Shown: positions 3,941 through 64,000 of the stretch, piece after piece
How positions within the stretch are numbered: position 1 is the stretch's first letter
Layout of the letters: each line of letters starts with the position of its first letter
Assembly: GCA_013298775.1 (NCBI GenBank)
Contig: JAAFIV010000009.1
Span: 62,001 to 126,000, forward strand
DNA length: 64,000 nt
From: Ignavibacteria bacterium
GTDB lineage: Bacteria > Bacteroidota > Ignavibacteria > Kapaibacteriales > UBA4661
Direction: 5' to 3'
Position numbers and translations under genes: made by a program
Notes under the pieces: generated by a model
Told to the model about the DNA's origin: nothing
Databases searched by the model: none
The model's input: the letters and a program-made list of their open reading frames with translations, nothing else

Positions 3941-3996
3941 GTCCGCCGGACGGCTACTGTGCTTGTGATAACAGCTGCTTGGGCGGGATAAGTACC
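3941..3996. mobile_element. Partial copy of the 144-bp MITE-like element
   Basis: This stretch matches the right half of the element (CCGGACGGCTACTG then TTGTGATAACAG) and stops at AGTACC, just short of the TGACCAGTTAC end. It lies five bases before the full copy at 4001-4144, so it is either a decayed older insertion or a rearranged end. Confidence 0.6.
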
Positions 3997-4000
3997 AAAA

Positions 4001-4144
4001 ATAACTGGTCAGGTACTATCCCGTCGGGCGGTTTCTTGACTGTCCGGCGGGTTCTTTGCTCGGTAAAGCGTCCCGCGTACACTCGCCGGACGGCTACTGC
4101 TCTTGTGATAACAGCCGCCCGACGAGAAGAACCTGACCAGCTAC
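4001..4144. mobile_element. MITE-like 144-bp element, copy A
   Basis: The ends are TAACTGGTCAGGTACT and AACCTGACCAGCTA, near-perfect inverted repeats, followed inward by GTCGGGCGG and CCGCCCGAC. Length from TAACT to AGCTA is exactly 142 bp, the same as copies B and C. The outer base is A instead of G on the left, and no clear 8-bp target duplication is present, perhaps because of the partial copy beside it. It fills the gap between the secreted Asp-box gene and the cyclophilin gene. Confidence 0.75.
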
Positions 4145-7564: not shown

Positions 7565-7674
7565 TAGGACTTTCGCAAACGGCGCAGACAAGAGTGTCTG
7601 CGCTACCATGTAGGCTTCGGTAGGGCAGACACTCTTGTCTGCCCCATGACGTGAGCCTTTGGCGAAAGTCCTCA
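7565..7674. mobile_element. Palindromic element with TAGGACTTTCGC ends
   Basis: The outer inverted repeat is TAGGACTTTCGC on the left and GCGAAAGTCCTCA on the right. Two inner hairpins each hold the motif GCAGACAAGAGTGTCTGC or its complement. A second full copy lies at 47565-47690; shorter versions with only the inner hairpins lie at 22208-22278, 34075-34161 and 57401-57478. It has no coding capacity, so it is a non-autonomous or REP-like element. It sits between the TPR gene and mtgA. Confidence 0.7.
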
Positions 7675-8445: not shown

Positions 8446-8475
8446 AGCAAATAGGCGCAAAACGTTGTCAAATTC

Positions 8476-8578
8476 GCCCCCTTGACAAAGGGGGAACGGG
8501 GGATTAAACGGTTCAACACCGCTTCAAATCTACTCGTTGCGCATGGTAAATCCCCCGTTCCCCCTTTATCAAGGGGGC
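8476..8578. repeat. Inverted repeat GCCCCCTTGA...AAGGGGGAACGGGGGATT
   Basis: Two 30-bp arms (8476-8505 and 8549-8578) are complementary with a single mismatch, separated by 43 bp. Each arm is itself partly palindromic (CCCCCTTG...AAAGGGGG). The type is widespread in bacterial intergenic regions. It separates mtgA from hslO and could act as a terminator, although it lacks a T tract. Confidence 0.75.
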
Positions 8579-8644
8579 AAATGAGTGAAATTGCCGTAAA
8601 ACCTGAATAGTAGCTGTTTCTCTCCATTTATCGAAAGAATTGTT

Positions 8645-23008: not shown

Positions 23009-23148
23009 TCACCTTACGCACAAGACCCTCACCCAACCCTCTCCCAGAGGGAGAGGGCTTCAGAGCTAGTCTCCACTAACCCTCGCCCTCTGGGAGAGGG
23101 TCTCGCGCAGCGAGGGGTGAGGGCGGCGCGAGGGTGTGCGTAAGGTGA
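23009..23148. mobile_element. 140-bp palindromic element with CTCTCCCAGAGGGAGAGG core
   Basis: Perfect 13-bp terminal inverted repeats: TCACCTTACGCAC (23009-23021) and GTGCGTAAGGTGA (23136-23148). Inside lie two opposed copies of the CCCTCTCCCAGAGGGAGAGG type hairpin. AAAAGTAA occurs at 23000-23007 and again at 23149-23156, so it looks like an 8-bp target duplication that includes the plsY stop codon. Core relatives lie at 55957-56049 and 63897-63937. Confidence 0.75.
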
Positions 23149-24176: not shown

Positions 24177-24222
24177 TAACATTGGTAACATTGTTCTGTA
24201 TTCTCGGTATTGTCAAATCTTC

Positions 24223-24366
24223 GTAACTAGTCAGGTACTATCTCGTCGGGCGGCTGTTATCACAAGCACAGTAGCCGTCTGGCGAGTGCTGTACAAGTGA
24301 CGCACCCGCCGTAAGGCAGCGTTCCTGCACCCCTCAGCCGCCCGACGGGAAGACCTGACCAATTAT
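24223..24366. mobile_element. MITE-like 144-bp element, copy B (8-bp target duplication)
   Basis: GTAACTAGTCAGGTACTATC at the left pairs with the right end GACCTGACCAATTAT. AAATCTTC flanks it exactly on both sides (24215-24222 and 24367-24374), which is an 8-bp target duplication. The core is asymmetric and in the opposite orientation to copies A, C and D. It lies between gpsA and a rho-independent terminator in a 546-bp gap. Confidence 0.88.
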
Positions 24367-32191: not shown

Positions 32192-32237
32192 AACAAAAAG
32201 CCATACGATGAGTATTTCACCGTATGGCTTTTTTGTT
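32192..32237. terminator. Bidirectional terminator after the giant gene
   Basis: AACAAAAAGCCATACG pairs with CGTATGGCTTTTTTGTT around a 13-base loop. Its T tract contains the left target duplication of MITE copy C, so the element inserted into the terminator tail. Confidence 0.88.
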
Positions 32238-32238
32238 G

Positions 32239-32382
32239 GTAACTCGTCAGGTATATCCCCGTCGGGCGGCTGAAGAGTGCGTAAACGCTGCCTTATGGCG
32301 GGTGCGTCGCTTGCACACCACGCAGGACGGCTACTGCACTTGTGATACCAGCCGCCCGACGAGATAGTACCTGACCAGTTAC
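32239..32382. mobile_element. MITE-like 144-bp element, copy C (8-bp target duplication)
   Basis: Ends GTAACTCGTCAGG and CCTGACCAGTTAC. TTTTGTTG flanks it exactly on both sides (32231-32238 and 32383-32390). The core is the reverse complement of copy B. It lies between convergent genes. Confidence 0.88.
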
Positions 32383-32445
32383 TTTTGTTGTAGGATAAGA
32401 GAATATTCGCTTCGATGACAGAAAAATCAAGAACAATAAGCACCA

Positions 32446-34074: not shown

Positions 34075-34161
34075 GGCTTCGGCACACGCAGACACTCTTG
34101 TCTGCGCCACTTGTACAATCGGGAAAAAGAGGCGCAGACAAGAGTGTCTGCGCTACCGAAG
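34075..34161. repeat. Inverted repeat with GCAGACACTCTTGTCTGC arms
   Basis: CTTCGGCACACGCAGACACT begins the left arm (34075-34108); the right arm, GGCGCAGACAAGAGTGTCTG then CGCTACCGAAG (34131-34161), is its complement. Short version of the element at 7565-7674, placed upstream of the aldo/keto reductase. Confidence 0.72.
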
Positions 34162-47380: not shown

Positions 47381-47689
47381 GCGCGGAGAATCGGATAGAA
47401 AAAAAACAGCGAACGCATGTGCCAAAACATCTACCAGCACACACGCCCGCCGTGGATAAAAGAAATGCGGCTGCCAATTTACAAAAGCTGCGTGAATTAG
47501 TACGAGAATATTTCATTGCCCGCACTTTCTGACCACTATTGCGCACACTCTTGATTTTGCCTATTAGGACTTTCGCAAACGGCGCAGACAAGAGTGTCTG
47601 CGCTACCATCAGGCTTCGGTTTCATCTGGCTTCGGTAGGGCGTAACACTCTTGTCTGCCCCATAAAACAAACCTTTCGCGAAAGTTCTA
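47381..47689. other. Gap between GIN-domain gene and mrdA
   Basis: 309 bp. The right 125 bases hold the palindromic element listed next. The left part has a weak hairpin (CACACGCCCGCCGTGG region) and no gene. Confidence 0.5.
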
Positions 47690-51003: not shown

Positions 51004-51336
51004 AAAGTAAAAAGTAACATCAAATAATTCTGCATCACACGAAAATACACATTTTTACGGTAGATTTACGATAGATTAGCACGGTGAACTTGTTAAAAAA
51101 ATGCGTAAAAAAATGCTAGATTGCGCTTCACTTGTCACGTCTTTCCGTCGGGCGGCTGAGAAGCTCGTGAACGCTGCCATTCGGCGGGTAAGTCGCGCTG
51201 GCACAACACCTGCCGGACGGCTACTCTGTCGGTGATAACAGCCGCCCGACAGGATAATGTTGTACCAGATAATGTTGTACCAGTTATCGTGATGCACGTT
51301 TTCTCACTTTCCCCTCATATTCTCTTCACAACTCGC
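51004..51336. other. Divergent gap with MITE copy D
   Basis: 333 bp between the outer-membrane gene and coaX. Apart from the MITE-like copy at 51126-51287, I see AT-rich sequence and no gene. Promoters of both genes must lie here or within the element. Confidence 0.5.
51126..51287. mobile_element. MITE-like element, copy D (diverged)
   Basis: GTCGGGCGGCTG at 51147 and CAGCCGCCCGAC at 51239 match the inner stem of copies A-C and the core orientation of C. The outer ends are decayed; the right end is expanded by two tandem ATAATGTTGTACCAG units (51254-51283), ending AGTTAT. No target duplication is seen. Confidence 0.7.
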
Positions 51337-55896: not shown

Positions 55897-55956
55897 ATGG
55901 AAGAAAAAAATGCGAGAAAGATTTGACGAAGGAGGCTTGAAGTTCATTCCCTCACT

Positions 55957-56049
55957 CCGCTCTGCGAGCGACCCTCTCCCAAAGGGCGAGGGTCGCTCGC
56001 GCTAGCTCTGAAGCCCTCTCCCTCTGGGAGAGGGTTGGGGTGAGGGGGT
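55957..56049. repeat. Palindromic repeat with CCCTCTCCCTCTGGGAGAGGG core
   Basis: Two inverted hairpin units, GCGAGCGACCCTCTCCC...GGGCGAGGGTCGCTCGC and CCCTCTCCCTCTGGGAGAGG, lie back to back. The same core is found at 23009-23148 and 63897-63937, but here I do not see the outer TCACCTTACGCAC ends. Confidence 0.7.
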
Positions 56050-62535: not shown

Positions 62536-63999
62536 CTACTGCGCCAGCCCCGTCACCCTATCCACAACCCGCACCACACCTGCGCCATTGTACGAATGAT
62601 ACTCACCATTGTACATCGCATCCGCGCTTACGGGACCGAGTTTAAACACGCCCTTCGAGACCGCCCGCGCCAGATAGTAGTAGTGCTGCGGCGTTGCGCC
62701 TCCAGCGTTTACGAAAAAGTTAATGCGGTCGTCGCGGATGTCGAGGTAGCTGGGTTCGGTGTTGTCTTTTATCCAGCCAAGCTCAGGAACTGCGCCCACT
62801 CTGGGGTTTTCGATTTCCAAGCCCGCCGGAAGCATATCCGTGATGGCAACGTTGGAAACGGCTTGTTTGCTGAGGGAAGCGAGTGTAATTTTCACCACAA
62901 CCAAATCATTTTGGAGAATGTTATCAGGCGAAAGCGGCTTCCCGTCTCGCGTGAGGAAGGTGCGGCGTACTTGAATAAAACTATCTTCTTGCGGGAATGA
63001 GCCGTCAGCACTCAAGCCCTGTGTGTCCCAGAAATAGTACAACGTGCCTTGCCCGCTAGAGGTGATGCTGATTTGCTGTCCCGCGAGGTAATGCCCTGTT
63101 TGCTGCGAAAGCACAACATCTGTGCCTGTGAATTGTGCAATTTGCTTACCGCCCGCACTAATACTTGCCTGTACGGTGCTTGCCGCCGCACTTCGCGCAA
63201 TTTTTCCCAATGCCACAAGCGCGACCGCATTTTCCTGCGTGTTCAGATACCGCGAGGTTTTAAGCTGCTCCGAGAGGTGTTTCGCCATGATGCCAATTTG
63301 CGGATTTTCTGGCTCTACTTCCAACAGTGCGTTCAGCGAAATAGCTTCGTCGCGGATGTACGAGTAAAAACTGCCGTCGAACGCCGTCGTTGCTCGCTCG
63401 CCGTCCAATGCTTTCGGCAAGAGCGCACGGTAGCTGGCTTTATCGCCCGCAAGGAAATACGCGCTTGCCAGCAAATAGCGCGAATCCAACGCGAGCGAGT
63501 CTTTGTTTGCCTTGTAGTAGTTCATCGTCGGGAAATCGGCTTTATTTGCCAATGCCAAAACGTAGAGGGAATAAAAAATCGTTTTTGCGGGAATATACTT
63601 GGTTTTAAGCGCGTTTGAGCGGTCGTAGTAGCCGTACCATTCATAATTGCGTTCCTTCACTTTTTTGCTCAAATATCCGTACAAGCGGCTCTGGAACTGC
63701 TCTCCCACCTCGTAGCCCGCTTTTTGTGCTTCCATAAGGAAATGCGCCCCATATGCGCTGCCCCACCAACTTTCTTCCGCGCCACCCTGCCAATACGACA
63801 ACGAGCCATTGTAAAGCTGCATCGAAGCAAGTTTGCGAATTGCCTCTTGGATATTGAACGCCGCTTGGTTACTTGCTCCTACGGCATTCCCATCTTGCCC
63901 CCTCTCCTTCTGGGAGAGGGCTGGGGTGAGGGTCGGAGAATTTTGCTGCAACGATTTTGCCAAATCGCCCACATACAACTGCGGAAACACGCTTGAAAC
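62536..63999 (-). CDS. Alpha-2-macroglobulin family protein, C-terminal part (5' end outside the window)
   Basis: The C-terminal 488 residues of a bacterial alpha-2-macroglobulin, a periplasmic protease trap. The frame stays open through 63999 with no start, so the gene begins beyond the window. Seen: helical TED-type segments (SLSYWQGGAEESWWGSAYGA, TQENAVALVALGKIARS), then beta domains with MG10-like features (VAITDMLPAGLEIENPRVG, YYYLARAVSKGVFKLGPVSA, AMYNGEYHSYNGAG). The residues SPTLTPALSQKERGQDG near the N-terminal edge are encoded by an inserted repeat (63897-63937). Thioester Cys, if any, would lie upstream of the window. PBP1C, the usual partner, is not visible. Confidence 0.88.
   Translation of the reverse strand, partial: VSSVFPQLYVGDLAKSLQQNSPTLTPALSQKERGQDGNAVGASNQAAFNIQEAIRKLASMQLYNGSLSYWQGGAEESWWGSAYGAHFLMEAQKAGYEVGEQFQSRLYGYLSKKVKERNYEWYGYYDRSNALKTKYIPAKTIFYSLYVLALANKADFPTMNYYKANKDSLALDSRYLLASAYFLAGDKASYRALLPKALDGERATTAFDGSFYSYIRDEAISLNALLEVEPENPQIGIMAKHLSEQLKTSRYLNTQENAVALVALGKIARSAAASTVQASISAGGKQIAQFTGTDVVLSQQTGHYLAGQQISITSSGQGTLYYFWDTQGLSADGSFPQEDSFIQVRRTFLTRDGKPLSPDNILQNDLVVVKITLASLSKQAVSNVAITDMLPAGLEIENPRVGAVPELGWIKDNTEPSYLDIRDDRINFFVNAGGATPQHYYYLARAVSKGVFKLGPVSADAMYNGEYHSYNGAGVVRVVDRVTGLAQ
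63897..63937. repeat. Palindromic repeat inside the alpha-2-macroglobulin gene
   Basis: CCCTCTCCTTCTGGGAGAGG followed by GCTGGGGTGAGGGTCGGA matches the core of the elements at 23009-23148 and 55957-56049. Read on the minus strand it gives PTLTPALSQKERGQ in frame, without a stop. Confidence 0.85.
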
Positions 64000-64000
64000 C

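Follow-up and report, generated by a model that had tools for sequence, protein, structure and literature searches.

REPIN/RAYT systems combine inverted repeat pairs that occur genome-wide with a small nuclease gene that is flanked by cognate repeats, the family of these repeats differing between genomes. The repeats described here resemble them in forming inverted pairs and in that genome-specific cognate repeats flank a gene, in this case one encoding a DUF559 protein. They differ in that DUF559 is predicted to have the Vsr/homing-endonuclease fold, as opposed to the Y1 HuH transposase, and in that cassettes are found in frame in housekeeping proteins.

The TM repeat (TMECO, or 'PIT') is defined, in the part of Holder et al. 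2015 available (PMC4666352), as CCCTCNCCC N3-6 GGGNGAGGG N3 GGGNGAGGG with one mismatch permitted, and the same part reports that the 23 TMECO copies in E. coli MG1655 all lie between genes and show no tie to mobile elements. Compared with this description, the unit found here has the same order of C stem, loop, G stem, 3-nt loop and purine third strand, forms two-unit inverted pairs and occurs in many copies per genome, here with 160 matches. It departs from it in that this genome has in-frame copies in three genes and mostly a 2-nt second loop, whereas the MG1655 copies are given as intergenic.

In-frame palindromic inserts are known from Rickettsia RPEs and from intragenic GTAG/CGTC REPs, many of them in repair genes, according to the accessible part of PMC3733652. 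The inserts reported here share with these, as far as that part describes them, a palindromic make-up, in-frame reading, frequent dimers, a hit in a repair gene (here Mfd, such genes being often hit) and orthologues without the insert (21/21 for A2M and 9/9 for GltB); they probably differ in sequence, and they differ in that no RAYT partner was found and in having DUF559 as the candidate partner. Identity with GTAG/CGTC REPs was rejected, since neither the insert nor the aligned copies carry the tag that the same part of that paper places at the palindrome foot. The EDxHD homing endonuclease I-Bth0305I and Vsr resemble the modelled DUF559 protein in fold, the difference being that the DUF559 flanks are TM-type repeats. 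No link of DUF559 to these repeats was found in the open-licence literature on TM, triplex/PIT, DUF559 and ycjD, which does not imply its absence from print.

The insert in the alpha-2-macroglobulin gene

The window, that is, the whole stretch of 64,000 nucleotides analysed, contains the 3' part of an alpha-2-macroglobulin (A2M) gene (Table 1), the product of which has the Pfam domains A2M_BRD, MG2, A2M and TED_complement together with bMG domains. A first-pass annotation had reported a palindromic repeat inside this coding frame at 63897-63937. The repeat sequence is indeed there, with its limits trimmed to 63898-63936, and it is in frame, but it is not a plain palindrome, the unit being a hairpin with a third purine strand, which makes it a triplex motif. 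Its core reads CCCTCTCCT-TCT-GGGAGAGGG-CTG-GGGTGAGGG and matches the published triplex motif with one stem mismatch (in CCCTCTCCT), the number that the definition allows. As had been proposed, there is no stop codon in the repeat, and the A2M frame on the minus strand reads through it as PTLTPALSQKERG. According to a codon comparison with relatives, 39 nt are inserted after TCT and before CAA, so that the addition amounts to 13 codons and not to the approximately 14 residues first given; the last residue (Q) of the peptide in the first-pass annotation may be native, given that CAA occurs near that spot in relatives. Translation of the insert peptide is predicted, and PTLTPALSQKER-derived peptides are those that would be looked for if it is translated in the window's species.

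When as many as 3 mismatches are allowed, a 21-base pattern occurs in 2 copies in the window against 0.00 expected from 100 shuffles. When folded as DNA, the 33-nt core gives a hairpin somewhat better than its shuffles (z of -2.24 and -3.38 for the two strands), and the core with its flanks gives one that is no better (z of -1.25 and -1.02), these calculations covering the hairpin only. The A2M insert is a solitary TM unit. It adds one more member to a repeat family already described, and in-frame insertion of this kind has precedents.

A protein search gave A2M matches in 25 of 61 genomes. Among the 24 other genomes, 21 were aligned at the insert, leaving out G060 and G031, where the hits are split, and G005, which has a distant paralogue only. 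PTLTPALSQKERG is absent from all 21 of these orthologues, six of which belong to the same genus, and also from E. coli YfhM, the best PDB match; no distant orthologue in this set carries the same peptide at the same site. This supports the proposal that the peptide is a trace of repeat insertion. The corresponding loop of the relatives is Q/S/G-rich and variable in length, with differing flanking residues. Plasmids searched with the A2M segment gave matches all below 60% identity.

The insert is positioned in a loop of the thioester domain, 22 residues past the CVEQ motif. In an AlphaFold model of a 500-aa A2M segment, residues 288-304, which include the insert, have pLDDT values below 50, with helix 273-286 before them and helix 305-326 after them. 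The suggested location between two helical segments is in line with this model, in which the placing is approximate because the mean pLDDT is 71.2 and the pTM 0.50.

Table 1. Positions of the features discussed (window coordinates unless a locus is named)
Feature	Position	Strand	Remarks
Alpha-2-macroglobulin gene, 3' part	62536..64000	-	whole gene L028:4536-10184, 1882 aa
Probable insert, 39 nt = 13 codons, PTLTPALSQKERG	63898..63936	-	from codon alignment with relatives
TM core	63900..63932	+	C stem 9 nt, loop 3 nt, G stem 9 nt, loop 3 nt, purine third strand 9 nt; one stem mismatch
Second TM copy in window	56014..56046	+	inverted pair with 55949-55993
Partner unit of TM pair 55949-56046	55949..55993	-	inverted repeat I6
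Third TM copy in window, 2-nt second loop	23026..23057	-	paired with 23079-23123
Inverted pair, second repeat family (CCCCCTTGACAAAGGGGGAACGGGGGATT), hairpin-plus-third-strand type	8472..8582	.	same family as upstream of L277
DUF559 nested in MetG, MetH, HMG-CoA lyase, HsdR of other bacteria	L293, L295, L299, L303, L363, L334, L369		

TM copies in the genome and in other coding frames

Genome-wide, the pattern CCCTCNCCN{2,4}CCCTCNCC has 86 + 74 = 160 matches, against 0 + 1 for the reversed control. In an aligned sample, the second loop measures 2 nt in 87 of 100 copies and 3 nt in the other 13, and many TM copies are arranged as inverted pairs with a length of about 100 nt. After omission of one of 101 distinct copies because of its short flanks, the remaining 100 were classed by a hexamer coding model trained on 31 ORFs of the window: 87 have no coding flank, nine have one, four have both flanks coding in the same frame and none has them coding in different frames. 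The four in-frame copies, one of which (L020) was matched out of register over a real unit, fall in three genes, those for A2M, glutamate synthase and Mfd. The claim that the element can be tolerated as a protein insert is strengthened by this, since with two more genes of the genome holding in-frame copies the A2M case is not a one-off.

Five of the six frames through a single TM unit are open in 98-100 of the 100 copies and encode linkers rich in Pro, Ser, Glu and Arg. All three genes use one and the same frame (LTPxLS) for the first unit, which is suggestive only, given that five of six frames are open anyway and that only three genes are concerned.

The names GltB and Mfd come from NCBIfam, the Mfd match of 753.6 bits being below the whole-protein cut-off of 800 with an ORF that is truncated. 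In GltB, the large subunit of glutamate synthase, a whole inverted TM pair is in frame and adds 40 residues (67 codons versus 27 in the same stretch). This pair is absent from all nine orthologues, including one that is 97.5% identical over 1200 aa; clean boundaries and a target duplication were looked for at the pair and none were found. In Mfd, the linker that contains the in-frame TM pair varies among all 11 aligned relatives. The linker of the nearest relative (G005, L204) is 11 residues shorter and has no recognisable TM, and because it is thus similar in length without a TM, Mfd stands for presence in frame and not for clean insertion. Where the TM pair lies, this relative's linker reads ESPMLPLSKRGKAQ, perhaps a remnant of another repeat family.

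In other genomes, TM copies with same-frame coding flanks number 3 of 22 in G009 and 0 of 30 in G015, counts that carry little weight because these loci had themselves served to train the coding model. The G009 loci are L065, L228 and L242; L228 is RND-transporter-like by eye and L242 is a DUF559 locus.

The window also holds further repeats. Palindromic ones that share the core GCAGACAAGAGTGTCTGC recur, also as inverted pairs, at 7581-7645, 34087-34152 and 47576-47607. Repeats of about 60-70 nt (CGTCGGGCGGCTG ... CAGTAGCCGTC), both direct and inverted, occur at 3944-4127, 24220-24359, 32236-32388 and 51134-51278; this family has GTAG next to the palindrome and may be a RAYT-type REP.

DUF559 genes and the repeats beside them

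DUF559 genes are associated with repeats of this type, a link that the first-pass annotation does not mention. PF04480 was matched in 27 of the 61 genomes, with TM-like repeats on both sides of these genes and the repeat family differing between genomes. At a locus of the sister genus (L264), the DUF559 gene is flanked by a repeat, and in a sister genome a DUF559-type C-terminus continues into a TM. In G012 and G035, none of the strict TM matches (5 and 2, respectively) is farther than 3 kb from a DUF559 gene, and in the phylum panel, among the matches listed, the sole TM match of G093, of G187 and of G307 is about 100 bp or less from a DUF559 match.

Contigs were then scanned with a DUF559 alignment, which gave 576 relatives among 590 stretches; the best 80 of the 576, from many phyla, were compared with 245 control ORFs from these contigs, each at a distance of more than 1.2 kb. 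A strict TM is found within 350 bp of 22 of these 80 loci, against 3 of the 245 distant ORFs, 8 of 1020 random positions and 23 of the 165 ORFs that lie nearer. A repeat common to the two flanks (score of at least 40) is present at 44 of the 80 loci, compared with 3 of the 245 distant ORFs and 16 of the 1020 random positions, and a C-rich (pyrimidine) hairpin with a purine third strand occurs within 350 bp at 70 of the 80, compared with 14 of the 245. The signal is broad by phylum, and without the 15 Acinetobacter loci the hairpin with third strand is present at 55 of 65 loci versus 14 of 191 ORFs, and the strict TM at 12 of 65 versus 3 of 191; P values for these comparisons are overstated, because the best 80 loci were chosen by a query whose first sequence is TM-flanked and 15 of them are from Acinetobacter. 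In an independent PF04480 panel in relatives, the hairpin accompanies 20 of 24 strong and none of 6 weak matches, with only 7 control ORFs and with a split into strong and weak that is our own, by E-value and completeness. In a tree test the TM-flank label requires 14 changes, compared with an average of 19.6 after shuffling and with 1 of 500 shuffles as low; the tree is poorly resolved, and Acinetobacter near-copies help the result.

In 12 of the best 80 loci, the DUF559 domain is in frame inside a larger ORF, with at least 100 aa before it and at least 60 aa after it. Nine of these were scanned for host domains (L292, L308 and L321 were left out), and all have host domains on both sides of DUF559, the hosts being MetG (methionyl-tRNA synthetase), MetH (three), HMG-CoA lyase, HsdR (two), MmeI and a type ISP enzyme. 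The junction peptides, for example SLTPGPSPAGRGE, ALTPTLSQGER and PHPDPLPGGEG, are the same kind of linker as the A2M insert peptide.

In E. coli MG1655, the gene ycjD (L371:1706-2261) is annotated as DUF559, and TMECO no. 9 of Holder's table, in the part of PMC4666352 available, lies about 170 bp downstream. The TM is on one side only, and the automatic hairpin-plus-third-strand test was negative on both sides. The PF04480 search has no E. coli match among the matches listed, although MG1655 YcjD carries this annotation. At least 80% of the L371:1706-2261 stretch is present in 3362 of 5426 E. coli genomes; two strains without ycjD have a TetR/efflux island at the site instead, with no clean empty site.

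A possible mobile element and its alternatives

On balance we favour the reading that a DUF559 nuclease serves mobile elements in a manner analogous to RAYT/REP. The TMs, as single units or inverted pairs, would be the ends or the non-autonomous miniatures of such elements, with DUF559 as the partner gene. The nuclease would recognise or cut at the folded TM, and a new site would then acquire, by copying or repair, either a TM pair or a TM-DUF559-TM cassette, events running in this direction with DUF559 as the mover of the TM. An insertion with a length that is a multiple of three would survive within a protein, which is possible because five of six frames are open and encode Pro/Ser/Glu/Arg-rich linkers, and the resulting proteins would be made and would work. 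In A2M, a solitary unit of frame-keeping length would have inserted where the thioester domain has a disordered loop.

It is less probable, and in our view unlikely, that host processes (template switching, replication slippage or gene conversion at hairpins) spread the TMs, with DUF559 merely accumulating in repeat-rich, tolerant places. Holder and colleagues, in the part of PMC4666352 available, found nothing in E. coli that connects the repeats with mobile elements, and they propose slippage and repair; in addition, the TM-rich genome G061 has 12 TM matches and no DUF559 match, among the matches listed, and at the own-genome loci with TM that were examined there is no DUF559-like ORF near the TM copies. 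Such processes do not readily fit the finding that a hairpin with third strand stands on both sides of 39 of the 80 best DUF559 loci and of none of the 245 ORFs on the same contigs, or that one flank often nearly duplicates the other, the family varying from genome to genome.

Some observations speak against DUF559 as the mover. The only PF04480 match of this genome (L277) has no TM beside the gene; the repeat upstream belongs to another family, CCCCCTTGATAAAGGGGGAACGGGGGATT, with 13 distinct copies in the own-genome loci examined. Because L277 lacks a TM and the TM copies lack a nearby DUF559, the TM mover of this genome, if it is a DUF559 protein, would be lost, missing from the assembly or acting in trans. 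Neither a clean empty site nor a target duplication was found. Across genomes the tracking is weak, with DUF559 present in 8 of 11 TM genomes versus 19 of 50 others, as counted from the 61-genome lists. In a panel of 296 genomes, the TM pattern counts include chance hits, since the reversed control matches in many genomes too.

The AlphaFold model of a DUF559 protein (pLDDT 85.5) matches 3hrl, which is DUF559-like (Z 15.2), I-Bth0305I (Z 11.3) and Vsr (Z 9.3). The predicted fold is that of Vsr and homing endonucleases, and a shared fold is by itself no proof of function. The likeness of the model to Vsr and to Holliday junction resolvases would also suit a guard nuclease that restrains or repairs TM-type structures, the adjoining repeats being its targets or autoregulatory sites, and a Caulobacter DUF559 protein has been proposed as a mismatch-repair nuclease in the accessible part of PMC12907096. 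We think this improbable, as repeat-bordered DUF559 domains that sit in frame in unrelated proteins resemble insertions.

Movement of the TMs by a RAYT (Y1 tyrosine) transposase, as for classical REPs, is highly improbable and was rejected. The inverted TM pairs are REPIN-like and the genome has two Y1_Tnp matches, but both are weak (26.7 bits with an internal stop, and 25.6 bits) and do not adjoin TMs, the only TM in the 16-17 kb around them being about 7 kb from one, with none around the other; moreover, Y1_Tnp counts in the 61 genomes do not follow TM, and the TM-rich G009 has zero. That the A2M peptide belongs to the native protein and is only coincidentally similar to the repeat, as the variable loop length and differing flanking residues of the relatives might allow, can practically be dismissed, since the 33-nt core belongs to a family with 160 pattern matches where the chance expectation is near 0, and none of the 21 orthologues has the peptide.

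Returning to the mobile-element reading, we hold it an evenly balanced question whether TM repeats and DUF559 (YcjD-like) nucleases make up a widespread undescribed class, with TM-DUF559-TM cassettes and TM-only miniatures that can insert in frame and persist unspliced in housekeeping proteins, as translated linkers or as entire additional domains. If mobilisation is confirmed, the DUF559 partnership would be a RAYT/REP-like system, possibly a class of its own. TM repeats are long-known features of E. coli and of many further bacteria, and the adjacency of DUF559 suggests how they may spread. With a recurrent partner gene, this spread becomes testable in E. coli K-12, whose genome contains ycjD as well as 23 TMECOs. 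If the reading is true, PALS-type peptides in unrelated proteins would be accounted for, and a second, non-RAYT system would join the few elements that survive as in-frame protein inserts.
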